Shown one piece after another: positions 21,987 to 27,500 of a stretch of DNA of 64,000 nt (positions within the stretch are counted from its first letter, which is position 1; each line of letters starts with the position of its first letter). The notes beneath the pieces were generated by a model, which saw nothing but the letters and a program-made list of their open reading frames with translations, made no database searches and was not told the origin of the DNA. Source of the DNA: Streptomyces nodosus. GTDB lineage: Bacteria; Actinomycetota; Actinomycetes; Streptomycetales; Streptomycetaceae. The stretch is from the NCBI RefSeq assembly GCF_008704995.1, contig NZ_CP023747.1, positions 434,001 to 498,000 of the forward strand. Direction: 5' to 3'. The position numbers and the translations under genes were made by a program.

Positions 21987-22352
21987 TCAGACCGCCCGCA
22001 GAACGCCGGGACGGCGGCCGGTGAGGCGGTCAAGTGCGGCGGCGCTCGCGCCGTCGGCCGACAGGTGGACGACGAGTTGCTGGTCGTCGTCGGCGGGCAG
22101 GCCGAGCGTTTCGTACGCCAACAGTACTTCTCCCACCTGCGGATGGACCGTGCGCACCATCGCGTTCGCCCGTGGCAACCCCGGCAGCGTCCGCAGGCGG
22201 GCGGCGAACGGTTCCCCGGAGGACACCGTCAACTCGTCCATCAGCGCACTGACATGGACGTCGGTCTGCCCCGGCCCCTGTTTGAGGGCAGCGACCTGCT
22301 CGTCGGCGACCCCGTCCCAGTCCGGGTACACGGTGCGCGCACGCCTGTACGG
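21987..22352 (-). pseudogene. C-terminal fragment of an XRE-type regulator (MmyB-like domain)
   Basis: The last 120 or so codons of this frame match the MmyB-like ligand-binding domain found after an XRE helix-turn-helix: TVYPDWDGVADEQVAALKQG, then PFAARLRTLPGL, MVRTVHPQVGEVLLAYETLG and LPADDDQQLVVHLSADGASA. The N-terminal DNA-binding half is absent, and the upstream sequence in this frame is non-homologous Arg/Pro-rich filler. It is a 5'-truncated gene next to other fragments. Confidence 0.65.
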
Positions 22353-22417
22353 TCCACGCGGACCTCCTGTGCGGGGGCGTCGACGGCACCGTGGGGCCCG
22401 ACCGCCCTCGGGCGCGG

Positions 22418-22801
22418 TCAGGACGTCGGACGCATGTCCGCGCCGTAGACGGTGCGGTAGTCGGGGACGACGACGCGCGCCACGGGGGACTCGCGGCGGA
22501 CCTGCGCGATGAAAGCCTCGACGTCCGCCGACGGGTCGGGGCTCGGCGGCAGGTCCAGCGACCTCTCGAAGTCGTCCCGGTGCACGGGCACCACGACGCC
22601 GGGGTCGCCGAGCGCTCGCAGCAGCCGGGGGACGTAGCGGTGCGTCGAGGCACTGGCCGGTACGGCGACCATCGCCAGGTCCCCCGGGCGCAGTCCTCGC
22701 GCCGCGTGCTCGCTGAAGTCGCTGGCGCCCATGGAGAAGGCCGAGGGCCCCTCGCTGCCCGCGGTCACCTGGAAGGCGAGGGTGTCGCCCTCGGGGGCCA
22801 C
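22418..22801 (-). pseudogene. C-terminal fragment of an MBL-fold hydrolase
   Basis: About 127 codons resemble the end of UlaG-like metallo-beta-lactamase-fold proteins: GPSAFSMGASDFSEHAARGL, LRPGDLAMVAVPASASTHRY, RALGDPGVVVPVHRDDFERS and a terminal VARVVVPDYRTVYG. The N-terminal half with the HxHxDH metal site is missing; an in-frame stop lies at 22826-22828 and sequence beyond it shows no homology. Residual expression from the GTG at 22801 is conceivable, but the product could not be an active hydrolase. Confidence 0.65.
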
Positions 22802-22882
22802 ACCCCGGGGACGCGGCCGGGGTGATCACCGATGGGGGACGAGCGCGCGCGGCGGTGGCCGCTCAACCGCCGGGAGAGCCGG

Positions 22883-23791
22883 TTAGATTGACACCCTCTC
22901 GGCTTTCACATGACGGGTGGTGCCGGGGCCCACCGGGGTGTCCCCGCGCAGTGTGATGCGGTGCATGACGCGGTGCTGGTCGCCGTAGTCGCGGTTGGCG
23001 TAGTGGGACGTGCTCCGGTTGTCCCACAGGGCGACGTCCCCGGGCCGCCAGCGATGGCGTACGACGTGTTCGGGCTTGGTGAGATGGGCGTAGAGGATGT
23101 CGAGGATGCCCCGGCTCTCGTGCTCCGAGACGCCGACGATGTGCGAGGTGAAGCCGGGGTTCACGAACAGGCCCTTGCGTCCGCTCTCGGGATGTACCCG
23201 CACGACCGGGTGCTCCACCGGCTTCAGCTCGGTGAACACCTCGCCTTCCCATAGATTGCCTCGGCCCTGTCGGCGCTGGGCCAGGTAGTAGCCGAACTCG
23301 CGGGTGCCGTCGTGGACGGCGGTGAGGGTGTCGAGGTGCGTCCGCAGGCCCGGTGACAGTGACTCGTAGGCGAGCTGGCTGTCGGCCCAGTTGGTGTCGC
23401 CGCCGCTGGGCGGCAGCACCACGGCCCGCAGCACCGAGATCGCCGGCGGCCGCTCCACGAACGTCACATCCGTGTGCCACACATCGGCGAATCCGTTGTC
23501 CTGGCTGTCCAGGGAGTACACCTCGGGGGCCACGTCGCCGGAGTCATGGACCGGGTGTCCCACGGTGACCTCGCCCAGCCGCCGGCCGAACTCGATCTGC
23601 GCGGCGTCGTCGAACCCGTCCTGGCCGCGGACGAAGAGCACCTTGTATCTGACGAGTGCCTCCCGGAGCGCGAGGACCTGTTCGTCGTCGAGGCTGCCGA
23701 GGTCGATGCCGTGGATCTCGGCGCCGAAGCGCGGGCCGAGCTCGGTGATCGGCAGCCGTGTCAGTGTCGGCTGGTCTCCGAAGATGCTCAT
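22883..23791 (-). CDS. TauD/TfdA-family Fe(II)/2-oxoglutarate dioxygenase
   Basis: A 302-residue enzyme that probably hydroxylates a sulfonate or sulfate ester so that sulfite or sulfate is released. The iron-binding facial triad is visible as His106-x-Asp108 (WHTDVTF) and His263 (NRSTSHYA). Arg274 and Arg278 (HRVMHR) match the 2-oxoglutarate and substrate arginines of TauD. Length is normal for the family. The ATG at 23791 has AAAGGA 7 bases ahead. It is the last gene of an ABC-importer operon, 33 bases behind the ATPase gene, so import and desulfonation are coupled. Taurine, alkanesulfonates or alkyl sulfates are the candidate substrates. Confidence 0.92.
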   Translation of the reverse strand: MSIFGDQPTLTRLPITELGPRFGAEIHGIDLGSLDDEQVLALREALVRYKVLFVRGQDGFDDAAQIEFGRRLGEVTVGHPVHDSGDVAPEVYSLDSQDNGFADVWHTDVTFVERPPAISVLRAVVLPPSGGDTNWADSQLAYESLSPGLRTHLDTLTAVHDGTREFGYYLAQRRQGRGNLWEGEVFTELKPVEHPVVRVHPESGRKGLFVNPGFTSHIVGVSEHESRGILDILYAHLTKPEHVVRHRWRPGDVALWDNRSTSHYANRDYGDQHRVMHRITLRGDTPVGPGTTRHVKAERVSI

Positions 23792-23824: not shown

Positions 23825-24631
23825 TCAGGCTGCGGCGGCGGTCTTCACGGCGTGGGCGACCCGCACCCGCAGTTCGTTGAACTCCCTTGACTCGCGCAGC
23901 TCGTCGGCGTCGACGTCGTCGCGCGGCAGGGTGATCGGCAGTTCCAGTGCCACGGTCCCGGGGCCCTTGGTCAGTACGACGACTCGGGAGCCGAGGAACA
24001 CCGCCTCGTCGGCCGAGTGCGTCACGAACACCGTGGTCCGCCCGGTCTGCGCGGTCACCCGGCGGAGGTCCTCCTGAAGCCGTTCCCGGGTCAGCGCGTC
24101 CAGCGCGGCGAACGGCTCGTCGAGCAGGAACAGCGGGTTCTCGGCGGCCAGCGCCCGGGCTATGGCAACACGCTGCTGCTGGCCACCGGAGATCTCCCAG
24201 ATGCGCCGTTCCGCGGTGCCCTCCAGACCGACCCGCGCCAGCAACTCGGCGCGCCGCGTGGGCCTTTGGGCCCAGTCGACGCCCGCGTACCGCAGCGCCA
24301 GGTCGAGGTTGCCCCGCACGGTCCGCCACGGGAACAGCCGCGGTGTCTGGAACACGACCCCGGCCGACTTGCCGGGCCGTGGTGCGGTGCCGGACACCCG
24401 CACCGAGCCGTGGGTGGGCTGCTCGAATCCGGCGATCAGCCGCAGCAGGGTGCTCTTGCCGCAGCCGGAGGCGCCCACCAGGACGAGGAACTCACCGGGC
24501 CGGACGGTCAGATCGACGGGGCCGACGGCGGTGACGCCGCCGTACGCATGAGTGACGTGCTCGATCCGGATGGAAGCGGACTGCGAGGTCCGGGGGTCCT
24601 CGGCTGTCTTCGTGATCTCACTTGAGGACAT
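23825..24631 (-). CDS. Sulfonate/taurine-type ABC transporter ATPase
   Basis: A 268-residue nucleotide-binding subunit of the SsuB/TauB group. Walker A is GASGCGKST, the Q-loop is VVFQTPRLFPWRTV, the signature is SGGQQQR, and Walker B is LFLLDEPF followed by the H-loop VTHSADEA. It energises the permease encoded at 25701-26570. I chose the ATG at 24631, which has GAGGGG 7 bases ahead and overlaps the end of the binding-protein gene by 14 bases; an in-frame start at 24646 lacks this site. Confidence 0.93.
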   Translation of the reverse strand: MSSSEITKTAEDPRTSQSASIRIEHVTHAYGGVTAVGPVDLTVRPGEFLVLVGASGCGKSTLLRLIAGFEQPTHGSVRVSGTAPRPGKSAGVVFQTPRLFPWRTVRGNLDLALRYAGVDWAQRPTRRAELLARVGLEGTAERRIWEISGGQQQRVAIARALAAENPLFLLDEPFAALDALTRERLQEDLRRVTAQTGRTTVFVTHSADEAVFLGSRVVVLTKGPGTVALELPITLPRDDVDADELRESREFNELRVRVAHAVKTAAAA

Positions 24632-25664
24632 CGGAAAGCCCCTCAAGATAGAACGCCTTACGGACGACAGCCGCGGACGGCGCGGTGTCGATCTGTCTCT
24701 GATCGGCCAGGAACCGGGCCGTGTCAGTGACGTAGGTCAGCAATCTGCCCGGGTCGGAGTCGGATCCGGTGCCCAGCCAATCCGCGGAGGCCACCTGCTG
24801 CGGGGTGAGAAACACCCCTTGCGCGAGCTGCGCCTTGGCGTCCGCCTCGCTGATGTTCAGTTCGGACGAGACGGCCTTGACCGAGCCGTCGGGGTCGGAC
24901 TTCAGCAGCCGCAACGCCTCAGCCTCTGCCTTGCGCCAGGCGTCGATCGCCTGCGGATCCCGGGAGATCAGTTCGTCCGACACTACGGCCAGGTCGAGGG
25001 TGGGCTTCCCGGCCGCACCGATCTCCTTGCTGCTGGTCACCTGCGTTCCGGTCTTGCGGAGTTCGTCGAGAGTGGGCAGCCAGACGTACGCGGCGTCGAT
25101 GTCACCGCGCTGCCACGCGGCGAGAATCGGCTGCGGCTGGAGGTCGACGAGCTGGACGTCGGCCGGCTTGAGGCCCGCCTTCTCCAGCGCCGCCAGCAGG
25201 CTGTAGTGCGAGGTGGACGCGAACGGGGTGGCGATCTTCTTCCCCTTGAGACCTGCCACATCGGTTATCCCGGTGCCCTTGCGTGCCACGAGCGCCTCGT
25301 TCTCGCCTGCCACGTCCAGGATCCACGCGACCTTGTACGGGATGGGCGAACTCCCGGACACCCCACGGGCGAACGGGCTCGACCCCAGGGCGGCGATGTC
25401 GAGGGAGTTGCCGATGAAGGCCTGGTTGACGCCTGCTCCGGAGTCGAACTTGATCCACGAGATCTTGTGGTCCGGCAAGGCCTTCTCCAGCAGCCTCTTG
25501 TGCTTCACGATCAGGTCGCCGCTGGGAAAGGCGAAGTATCCGATGCGGAGTCTCCTGGAGCCGTCGGACGAGGACCCCTCGCTGCCGGAGGAGCAGCCGG
25601 TGACGGCGGCGGAGGCGGCGGCGAGGGCACCCGCGAGCAGCAGGCGGCGGGAGGGACGGGACAT
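24618..25664 (-). CDS. Sulfonate/taurine-type substrate-binding lipoprotein
   Basis: A 348-residue NMT1/SsuA-like binding protein. The signal peptide carries twin arginines (SRRLLLAG) and the lipobox AVTGC, with Cys about residue 24. The mature part begins with a Ser/Gly linker followed by RRLRIGYFAFPSGDL, the usual first strand, and contains TDVAGLKGKKIATPFASTSH, the ligand-site region. It captures organosulfur compounds outside the cell. The gene lies 36 bases after the permease gene and overlaps the ATPase gene. Confidence 0.92.
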   Translation of the reverse strand: MSRPSRRLLLAGALAAASAAVTGCSSGSEGSSSDGSRRLRIGYFAFPSGDLIVKHKRLLEKALPDHKISWIKFDSGAGVNQAFIGNSLDIAALGSSPFARGVSGSSPIPYKVAWILDVAGENEALVARKGTGITDVAGLKGKKIATPFASTSHYSLLAALEKAGLKPADVQLVDLQPQPILAAWQRGDIDAAYVWLPTLDELRKTGTQVTSSKEIGAAGKPTLDLAVVSDELISRDPQAIDAWRKAEAEALRLLKSDPDGSVKAVSSELNISEADAKAQLAQGVFLTPQQVASADWLGTGSDSDPGRLLTYVTDTARFLADQRQIDTAPSAAVVRKAFYLEGLSDVLK

Positions 25665-25700: not shown

Positions 25701-26570
25701 TTATGCGCGACCGCGCCACGGAACGACCGTACGTTCCAGCCGCAGCAGCAGTGCGTCGATGACCAGGCCGGAGACACCGATGGCGATGATGCCGACGAGC
25801 ACCACGGGAGTGTTGTTGTAGTTGGCGGCGTCCTTCACCATGCCGCCGATGCCGGGCAGCCCGTTGACCAGTTCGGCGGCGACGAGGGAGGAGTAGGCGA
25901 CGCCGACCGCCAGCCGGACACCGGTGAGCGTCTCCGGCAGCGCGGACGGCACGATGACGTCCCTGACCACGTCCCATCGCGACCCGCCGAGCGCGCGGGC
26001 CGCCTCGACCAGGCTCGTCGGTACGGCGGCCACGGCGGTCGTGGTGGACACGGCCACCGGCGGGAAGGCGGCCACCGCGAGCAGCGTGATCTTCGGCTCC
26101 TCGTCGATGCCCAGCCAGATGATGAGGAGCGAGAAATACGCCAGCGGTGGCAGCGTCCGCAGGAAGGTGATCCAGGGCTCGAACAACGAGCGCACCCAGC
26201 CGACGGTGCCCATGAGCAGTCCGAAGACCAGCCCGGCGGCGATGCCGATCCCGGCGCCGAGCGCGATGCGCCGCAGGCTGATACCCAGGTGCTCGATGAG
26301 CGTGGTGCCGTTGTAGCCCCGTACGCCGTGGTGCGTCGTGGACAGGTCGACGAACGCGTCCCACACCTTCGTGGGCGGCGGAACCAGCGTCTCGCTCCAC
26401 GCTCCGCTCGCCGCCAGCGCCTGCCACAGGAGGAGAAACAGCAGAAGCGAGCCGAGTGGCAGGGCGACATGGGCGACGCGTTCCGGGACGCGGGAACGAC
26501 GCCGTACGGAAGGTCTGTCAGTTGTCGGGGTGGTGGGATCGGTTTCTGGCACGGAGGGTGTCGTGGACAC
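25701..26570 (-). CDS. Sulfonate/taurine-type ABC transporter permease
   Basis: A 289-residue SsuC/TauC-like permease with about six membrane segments. The EAA loop (LVEAARALGGSRWDVVRDVIVPSALP, about residues 185-215) contacts the ATPase. The polar N-terminus of about 35 residues precedes the first helix. I chose the GTG at 26570 because GGAG lies 8 bases ahead; the frame is open further upstream but lies in the leader region. It is the first structural gene after the leader peptide, 160 bases downstream of its stop, leaving room for an attenuator. Confidence 0.9.
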   Translation of the reverse strand: MSTTPSVPETDPTTPTTDRPSVRRRSRVPERVAHVALPLGSLLLFLLLWQALAASGAWSETLVPPPTKVWDAFVDLSTTHHGVRGYNGTTLIEHLGISLRRIALGAGIGIAAGLVFGLLMGTVGWVRSLFEPWITFLRTLPPLAYFSLLIIWLGIDEEPKITLLAVAAFPPVAVSTTTAVAAVPTSLVEAARALGGSRWDVVRDVIVPSALPETLTGVRLAVGVAYSSLVAAELVNGLPGIGGMVKDAANYNNTPVVLVGIIAIGVSGLVIDALLLRLERTVVPWRGRA

Positions 26571-26639
26571 GGGGCAGGCTCCAGAAGGCACCGGGAGACG
26601 AGCAGTTGGGGTCGGCAAAGGCCGGACAGCCCAGAGGAA

Positions 26640-26653
26640 GCACCCAAGGGTGC
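26640..26653 (-). promoter_or_regulatory. Hairpin between leader peptide and permease gene
   Basis: GCACCC-TT-GGGTGC forms a perfect 6-bp stem in the leader RNA. A second short stem (GCGTC-GCT-GACGC) lies nearer the leader stop codon. No U-run follows, so the mechanism, if real, would more likely be Rho-dependent or translational than intrinsic termination. The assignment rests on position only. Confidence 0.3.
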
Positions 26654-26729
26654 GACAGGAGACGGCGCCGTCGAAAGACGACACCGGCTGGTGGGGCGCG
26701 TCAGCGACGCGGGATCAAGCGATCAGCGA

Positions 26730-26801
26730 TCAGCGACAACACGAAGCCGGGCGTCGGCACAGGTCGATGACCAGGCGTCGCACCAAAGGCTTGTGATTCA
26801 T
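26730..26801 (-). CDS. Putative cysteine-sensing leader peptide (23 aa)
   Basis: A short open frame starts with the ATG at 26801 and ends in a TGA at 26730. Its C-terminal part reads LVRRLVIDLCRRPASCCR. This follows the pattern of actinobacterial sulfur-gene leader peptides (LV-R--VDL-R-AS--C), ending in adjacent Cys codons. A strong promoter places the transcript start at or next to the ATG. Ribosome stalling at the three Cys codons under cysteine shortage would signal sulfur need and favour expression of the downstream importer and dioxygenase. Regulation is inferred from the pattern and position; the reading frame itself is plain in the sequence. Confidence 0.8.
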   Translation of the reverse strand: MNHKPLVRRLVIDLCRRPASCCR

Positions 26802-26807
26802 GGGGCT

Positions 26808-26836
26808 GTTATACAGCAGCCGCCGTTCTCCACCAA
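26808..26836 (-). promoter_or_regulatory. Promoter of the organosulfur operon
   Basis: On the minus strand TTGGTG (26836-26831) and TATAAC (26813-26808) are separated by exactly 17 bases. The -10 ends 6 bases before the leader ATG, so the first transcribed base should be at or beside that ATG: a leaderless start for the leader peptide. Confidence 0.7.
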
Positions 26837-26910
26837 GAGCCGTCCACTTTCTGGAACCTGGATTCAAGGCAAGCTTGCTGTCGAAGTGACGGTGACGACC
26901 GTGATGCCCG

Positions 26911-27396
26911 TCAGCACTTGTCGTCGACGAGTTCGTCGAAGTCCTTGGTGCTCATGGCCCGGCCGTCGGCCCAGACCTGGCCCGGCCGGAGGGAGGCGAG
27001 GTCATCGGCGGTGAAGTAGACATGTGCCATGTAACCGCCGGACCCGTGGAAGGCCAGCGCATAGGTCCGTCCGGGCAGCAGTGCCTGTCTGCCGAAGGTT
27101 TGCACGCGCCATTCGGGTGGTGGGAAGAAGATCGGGAAGACGACACCTCCACGGTTTGTCGCTCCCCATGCCTCCCATCCGCTGTCGTCTTCGAGCGCGG
27201 CTTCGCCTTCTTCAGGTGTCCAGCTCCCCAGACGCATCCCAGAAAGCGTCTCGCCCCCGTCACACGGCCGTAGTTCGGCCACCGACTGCCTGTGGCCCCC
27301 GTTTCGCACCGCCACGAGCGGCAGGTCGGGAGGGCTGCACCCACTCACCATGGTGAGACCCAACGCCAGGCACACCGCCCCGCCCACACGTCTCAT
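26911..27396 (-). CDS. Putative lipoprotein, 161 aa
   Basis: Family not recognised. A lipoprotein signal (MRRVGGAVCLALGLTMVSGC) precedes a small extracellular domain with VFPIFFPPPEWRVQTFG and a C-terminal DELVDDKC. Cysteines at the start and end of the mature domain could pair. The ATG at 27396 has GGGGGAG about 6 bases ahead. It shares the strand of the sulfur operon but lies upstream of that operon's promoter, so it is probably a separate unit. Confidence 0.72.
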   Translation of the reverse strand: MRRVGGAVCLALGLTMVSGCSPPDLPLVAVRNGGHRQSVAELRPCDGGETLSGMRLGSWTPEEGEAALEDDSGWEAWGATNRGGVVFPIFFPPPEWRVQTFGRQALLPGRTYALAFHGSGGYMAHVYFTADDLASLRPGQVWADGRAMSTKDFDELVDDKC

Positions 27397-27500
27397 TCCG
27401 GCTCCCCCTCGGATGCTGACCTCTAGGGTTGGGTCTGCCTGGGGAGGAGTCGAGTTCCGTACGATCTCGGTTCGGACTCGTGTGCGGGCCGGGCGCACTC

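Follow-up and report, generated by a model that had tools for sequence, protein, structure and literature searches.

For mycobacterial leader peptides of the Ms5788A and Ms4527A types, cysteine-dependent attenuation is reported in the available passages of PMC9031893 and PMC4633059, and the parts of PMC9031893 and PMC13236596 at hand describe leaderless Cys ORFs of M. smegmatis which regulate their downstream genes through cysteine-dependent elongation, in the manner of translation attenuation. These leaders, covered by the NCBIfam models NF042933 and NF042936, resemble the one treated here in being leaderless ORFs with Cys codons near the stop codon that stand before sulfur genes. Citing papers trace them to Canestrari et al. 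2020, a study in which stalled ribosomes are reported to prevent RNA structures from hiding the ribosome-binding site. For S. lividans, PMC8079986 describes leaderless attenuator ORFs, of which the metL leader before metNIQ also carries three Cys codons; the eight leaders listed belong to other amino acids, with no assignment to cysteine in the passages available. A tandem of Cys codons also occurs in uORFC-8-2, an upstream ORF that serves as the cysS leader of Rhodobacterales and which, according to the excerpt of PMC8632094, has an intrinsic terminator and mainly uses UGC, whereas no terminator was found at our leader (positions 26400-27000) and one of its Cys codons is fixed as UGU. We recognised no description of our leader or of its UGU rule in a literature search; Canestrari et al. 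2020 may treat codon choice. The locus would bring a taurine/sulfonate-type scavenging operon, along with a divergent leader branch that falls below the current NCBI model cut-off, into the actinobacterial network of ribosome-sensed cysteine. We estimate the probability that a leaderless cysteine leader peptide controls this taurine-type sulfur-scavenging operon at roughly 80%.

The window, i.e., the whole stretch of 64,000 nt analysed from the Streptomyces nodosus genome, had previously received a sequence-only reading, which proposed a 23-codon frame behind TTGGTG-17-TATAAC. This was confirmed by translation and by inspection of the sequence, and all genes and promoter elements given below lie on the minus strand. 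The leader ORF (MNHKPLVRRLVIDLCRRPASCCR*, 26730..26801) ends with a UGA stop codon and contains, as had been stated, three Cys codons of which two are adjacent: TGC at residue 15 (26757..26759) and TGT TGT at residues 21 and 22 (26736..26741), counted from the invariant Asp as Asp+2, Asp+8 and Asp+9. The pair stands one codon ahead of the stop, and the clustering of Cys codons near the stop is a feature shared with mycobacterial-type leaderless cysteine attenuators. The presumed transcript start lies near the ATG at 26801, since the −10 box TATAAC (26808..26813), separated by 17 nt from the −35 box TTGGTG (26831..26836), ends 6 nt before the ATG. This distance falls within the range of 4–9 nt (mean 6.3) given for −10 boxes and transcript starts of S. 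lividans in the available passages of PMC8079986. A consensus sigma-70 scan of positions 26400-27000 did not call this promoter because TTGGTG matches TTGACA at 3/6 positions and TATAAC is without the final T.

Downstream of the leader, the expected sulfonate importer and TauD were found in the form of a taurine-type gene set. Family searches identified a TauC/SsuC-type ABC permease (25701..26570) with its best start at GTG 26570 and a Shine-Dalgarno-like GGAG at 26579..26582, a taurine/sulfonate-type substrate-binding protein (24618..25664) and a TauB-type ABC ATPase (23825..24631), which are followed by a TauD-type 2-oxoglutarate dioxygenase (22883..23791) recognised by Pfam, NCBIfam and PDB comparisons. 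The latter scored 231.6 bits with the Pfam TauD model, 291.9 of 313 bits with the NCBIfam taurine dioxygenase model and E 4.7e-71 with PDB 1gqw. The best NCBIfam match was a taurine model for all four genes, each under its cut-off. Because of these below-cut-off scores and because the solved relatives of the window TauD include alkyl sulfatases besides taurine dioxygenases, we call the operon taurine/sulfonate-type, and its substrate may be taurine, a different sulfonate or a sulfate ester. The 160-base leader of the sequence-only reading corresponds to the stretch after the ORF, a spacer of 159 nt from the leader stop to the permease start (26571..26729), which is C-rich, G-poor and poorly conserved among relatives. 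Counted from the presumed 5' end of the transcript, the GTG at 26570 is 231 nt away.

Fetching 49 relatives of the permease yielded 44 loci with the leader, which together with the window form a set of 45 leaders; the other five, from other bacteria and with permeases 33-43% identical, had none. The sequence-only reading had named conservation of the Cys codons in orthologous leaders as one test of its idea, and leader and Cys codons were indeed kept in 44/44 of the Streptomyces orthologous permease loci fetched, counting two titled uncultured Streptomyces (L030, L040) and one titled only 'Actinobacteria bacterium', which was assigned to Streptomyces by similarity (L027, 92%). DLC and CC are each present in all 45 peptides, whose N-terminus and C-terminal tail vary and whose residues away from the Cys codons are otherwise strongly conserved. 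The promoter is preserved as well: a TA-N-AA-[AC] box ends 6–8 nt before the start codon in 45/45 leaders (8 nt in 30, 7 in 11 and 6 in 4), the TTG of the −35 box occurs in 42/45 and the 17-nt spacing in 40/45. This geometry fits a leaderless start, with the ATG at the predicted 5' end.

Such a frame is rare within the window itself. We scanned both strands for start-to-stop frames of 12–40 codons, counted per start codon, with at least three Cys codons, two of these in the last six residues, and a TANAAN box 5–8 nt upstream; these criteria were chosen after the ORF had been seen. The Cys criteria alone were passed by 6/856 frames, compared with a mean of 4.85 in resampled windows, while the leader ORF was the sole one of the 856 to pass the combined criteria, and none did so when the window was randomly resampled 20 times (first-order). 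The decisive argument that the ORF is more than chance is its conservation, which is stronger than the frame scan. That it is an untranslated chance ORF, for which its length of only 23 codons might speak, is hardly credible against the 44/44 conservation and the synonymous constraint described below.

When the order was searched for the leader pattern with up to two mismatches, 36 of its 391 genomes examined had matches; these belong to a single genus out of 10 and include a two-mismatch match at G232:C32, and the reversed pattern had no match among the matches listed for the same genomes. One match (G097) lies inside a longer gene, which leaves 35 genomes with the leader. Permeases of at least 78% identity occur in 29 of the 391 genomes, all of them among these 35, and permeases of 55-65% identity in 32 further ones. 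The six leader genomes without an orthologous permease are L124, L141, L172, L117, L115 and L119. The first long ORF after the leader codes for an O-acetylhomoserine sulfhydrylase in L124 (793 bits, cut-off 703) and for TauD in L141 and L172, and in L117 the leader is followed by a fragment of the operon's ATPase. Leader and promoter thus behave as a module, heading other sulfur genes in L124, L141 and L172. At two broken-looking operons the leader is changed, with the Asp+2 Cys replaced by Arg and the usual −10 box altered in L119 and CC changed to CSC in L115; this coincidence may be taken as suggestive only.

The family pattern LV-R--VDL-R-AS--C claimed for the peptide proved right in kind, but its score falls short of membership. 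With the NCBIfam model NF042934 (cis_reg_atten), the window peptide reached 10.1 bits (E 0.5) at a cut-off of 27, and relatives from its branch behaved similarly (L052 15.1 bits, L051 no match, a consensus-like mix 14.6). No match to NF042933 or NF042936 was obtained at a maximum E of 10, a setting at which the HMMER filters drop most weak matches. The peptide shares with NF042934 members the VDL/IDL core, a Cys at Asp+9 written UGU and a position before a sulfur gene, as is found for members downstream in the S. nodosus genome, whereas the window branch reads LVRRLVIDLCRR...CC and scores below the cut-off; the combination of a [VI]DL core with Cys at Asp+9, present in the window peptide, is our own reading of the members and no published rule. 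A link is provided by the more distant permeases, of which the upstream regions of 18 out of 32 were read. Sixteen of them contain bridging leaders that read MTVDRFLVECLHIDLCRVSSASC(C) or MISDQFLKERLSIDLCRVTSCSC, share an IDLC core and have upstream sequence that is similar by eye; L190 and L191 have no leader. Two bridging peptides scored 25.8 and 24.0 bits with NF042934, just under 27, and weakly with the Ms5788A (19.6 of 45) and Ms4527A (14.2 of 45) models. Unlike the window leader, the bridging clade and other leaders of the same genome do match these mycobacterial models, most of them below 45 bits. By its sequence, the window leader is a divergent branch of the known leader kind and no formal member of NF042934.

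The S. nodosus genome contains six NF042934 leaders above the cut-off and two weaker ones (L007, L008). The genes behind these eight code for a cysteine dioxygenase, a NirA-type reductase, SsuC, a sulfurtransferase, an SsuE-like ORF (466 nt away) and a cysteine synthase (495 nt away), as well as for an SDF symporter and a 2OG oxygenase; the sulfurtransferase leader reaches 44.9 of 45 bits with Ms5788A. The leader at 5526312-5526368 (L001, 35.5 bits) precedes the cysteine dioxygenase gene (L001 1446-871). At the leader at 7694972-7695022 (L002), the SsuE-like ORF covers positions 65-169 of the 171 of its profile, its first part being missing or in another frame. Matches above the cut-off were present in 61/61 Streptomyces genomes sampled (search at E 0.001), and matches at E 0.001 in 110/148 genomes and 59/81 genera of the class.

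The leader is also constrained at the level of its nucleotides. The commonest codon had a mean share of 0.948 in the 12 conserved leader codons, a small set in which Leu at Asp-7 reached merely 0.56, versus 0.80 in 182 conserved columns of 43 permease sequences, where the share depends on the amino acid (Leu 0.80, Val 0.75, Arg 0.74, Asp 0.99, Ile 1.00). CGA is used at Asp-5 in 42/45 leaders; among the 5318 Arg codons counted at the same loci in 203 gene-like ORFs, it occurs 167 times. Invariant is the Cys codon at Asp+9, which is TGT in 45/45 leaders, next to TGT 43, TGC 1 and TCC 1 at Asp+8 and TGC 44 and TGT 1 at Asp+2. Background usage is the opposite, with 222 TGC and 39 TGT (UGU about 15%) in gene-like ORFs of the 44 loci and 55 TGC and 13 TGT in 18 gene-like ORFs of the window.

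This codon-level rule, under which the key Cys, located nine residues downstream of the invariant Asp, is written UGU in every leader parsed, is the new element here and extends to the wider family. Cys at profile position 19 was encoded by TGT in 46/46 distinct matched peptides, versus 57 TGC and 16 TGT for the other Cys codons of these leaders (Fisher p 1.4e-19, overstated because the relatedness of the leaders is ignored). The Asp codons of the 46 peptides vary (GAC 37, GAT 9), as do the codons flanking the UGU, and a longer fixed RNA word is therefore not discernible. By locus, taking the best-scoring ones of each search rather than a random draw, TGT at Asp+9 was found in 8/8 leaders of the genome itself, 30/30 genus loci, 29/29 parsed of 30 class loci (in L195, the one not parsed, position 19 is TGT), 28/28 parsed of 30 Ms5788A-type class loci, which overlap with the class loci, and 16/16 of the bridging clade; over four search sets of the wider family this amounts to 78/78 distinct contexts. 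Further pattern matches, partly at the same loci, gave 22/22 TGT in 19 of 25 genomes. Two Ms5788A-type matches outside the genus contain an in-frame TGA (G486:C1:6066653-6066718 and G535:C1:5388829-5388888). ARAGORN found two tRNA-Cys genes in the S. nodosus genome, in a scan covering all 72 tRNA places, and because both carry the anticodon GCA, the UGU would be read by wobble. A tentative idea, which we hold to be rather less than likely, is that the UGU at Asp+9, and not the mere number of Cys codons, is a dedicated sensor across actinobacterial cysteine leaders; the ribosome would then be timed by wobble decoding via the GCA tRNA-Cys or by the modification state of this tRNA, acting together with the conserved RxxVDL nascent chain. 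If so, a UGC in place of this UGU, which leaves the peptide as it is, should weaken the response. UGU cannot be a general rule for Cys attenuators, since UGC dominates in the Rhodobacterales cysS leader according to the portion of PMC8632094 at hand.

For the window locus we infer the following course of events. Transcription would begin at the leader ATG or right beside it, and while the remaining leader RNA is made, the 23 codons would be translated by the first ribosome. With plentiful Cys-tRNA, it would finish at the UGA and leave, and the downstream genes would be poorly expressed, whereas in cysteine shortage it would dwell on the two adjacent UGU codons close to the stop and thereby lift a block on the four genes of the operon, from the permease to TauD. 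A plain induction under cysteine shortage does not fit the whole network well, because a leader of the same family precedes a cysteine dioxygenase, an enzyme that consumes cysteine; either the L001 leader works in another sense or the leader network does more than answer starvation.

The cysteine attenuation proposed by the sequence-only reading is partly supported by the kind of leader, its conserved Cys codons and its kinship, but no classical attenuator with terminator, covariation or SD pairing came to light. A classical transcription attenuator was rejected because no terminator was detected in 26400-27000 and RNAalifold gave no pair with both sides changed (0/20 pairs) for the 31 leaders aligned; the 14 others had been set aside beforehand, L049 and L054 because their permease start is missing and the rest by eye because their spacers are divergent or long (L019, L026, L032, L039, L040, L043, L044, L047, L048, L049, L051, L052, L053 and L054). 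An Rfam search of 26300-27000 gave no match up to E 1. The spacer contains a predicted hairpin (GGUGUCGUC-UUUC-GACGGCGCC, 26664..26685, 45–66 nt after the stop) without a U tract, and the spacer of the window folds with a z of −1.30 (20/200 shuffles fold as well); the mean z was −0.85 over 43 leaders, of which five were below −2. These 43 show free variation in the length of the spacer (90-291 nt) and in frame relation (18/14/11). A simple switch between leader ORF and SD was likewise rejected on thermodynamic models, run on 43 of the 45 leaders as L049 and L054 are without a mapped permease start: modelled SD pairing with the leader ORF averages 0.08, total SD pairing is 84% both without a ribosome and with one on the Cys codons, compared with 83% when the ribosome is at the stop, and the leader-SD duplex has a mean z of 0.06 (1/43 below −1.5). 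These models bear on the simple form of the switch, and a translational mechanism as such may still act. Helix A, formed by the leader end and a downstream CGGUGAC, was discarded because 91.2% of cells pair compared with 91.4% in shuffles, without any double change; in a free duplex search its mean z was −0.38 (7/43 below −1.5). Hairpin B showed 18 cells with both sides changed versus 9.8 in shuffles (0/500 as high), although one slid control reaches 16 and the brackets were drawn from the alignment itself, and a covariation score of 0.191 versus 0.140 (2/500), while double-change pairs (3 vs. 3.1) and pair types were not above shuffles. The covarying hairpin lies 27–49 nt after the stop in L031, and the window hairpin is not in its register; covariation thus appears to lend modest support to a spacer hairpin in the relatives.

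Versions of our explanation differ in the last step. Control at the level of translation, as reported in the available passages for the M. smegmatis relatives, comes close to an even chance in our view. Somewhat behind it we place Rho-dependent attenuation, which shares all earlier steps of the best explanation: a released ribosome would expose the C-rich, G-poor spacer and Rho would terminate before the permease gene, which a ribosome held on the Cys codons would prevent. The composition fits, with C 0.45 and G 0.25 in the first 40 nt after the stop and a median C minus G at the 91st percentile of random locus windows (24/43 above the 90th, the window at the 92nd), although this background is mixed sequence of both strands rather than other 5' leaders. 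The window has no intrinsic terminator at 26400-27000, and PMC1262725 suggests Rho for mycobacterial cys leaders without conserved terminator hairpins, but in the passage available calls its own prediction weak; we also saw no conserved rut site. Some other level of control seems quite unlikely.

Two further possibilities, both of which we doubt, concern the peptide itself and a DNA-binding regulator. In concert with cysteine or some signal derived from it, the nascent peptide might arrest the ribosome, LVRRLVIDL then mattering as much as the Cys codons. The strong conservation away from the Cys codons, unneeded by plain starvation attenuation, argues for this, yet a nucleotide-level constraint in the same codons explains it too, and we know of no described arrest motif that matches. 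Equally doubtful is that a DNA-binding sulfur regulator mainly governs the operon and the leader only fine-tunes it. Its putative site would be the imperfect dyad GTTCCAG-AAA-GTGGAC that closely precedes the −35 box (26842..26857), whose regular expression GTYCCA[CG]-NNN-GTGG(R)AC matches at this place in 23/45 leaders; arm-6 palindromes of at least 5/6 occur in 26/45 compared with 87/450 control windows, and a one-mismatch copy lies upstream of the NirA-type leader L004 of the same genome (5903965-5903981). Against it, half of the loci are without the expression match, conservation of the leader exceeds that of the dyad, and the genome-wide count at up to one mismatch, taken with a 17-nt pattern that misses the window's own 16-nt copy, is close to the control (82 vs. 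65 matches). A functional small Cys peptide as the product of the ORF, in place of a regulatory leader, is very improbable: the peptide is conserved over 45 loci, but its kinship with known leaders is fixed in register, its N-terminus and C-terminal tail vary, and the leader is changed where the operon looks broken.

Two ORFs on the same strand flank leader and operon. The one ahead of the leader (26911-27498, 195 aa) has no Pfam or NCBIfam match, and the one downstream of tauD (21987-22829) contains the ligand-binding domain of an MmyB-like regulator (Pfam MLTR_LBD, 60.3 bits).
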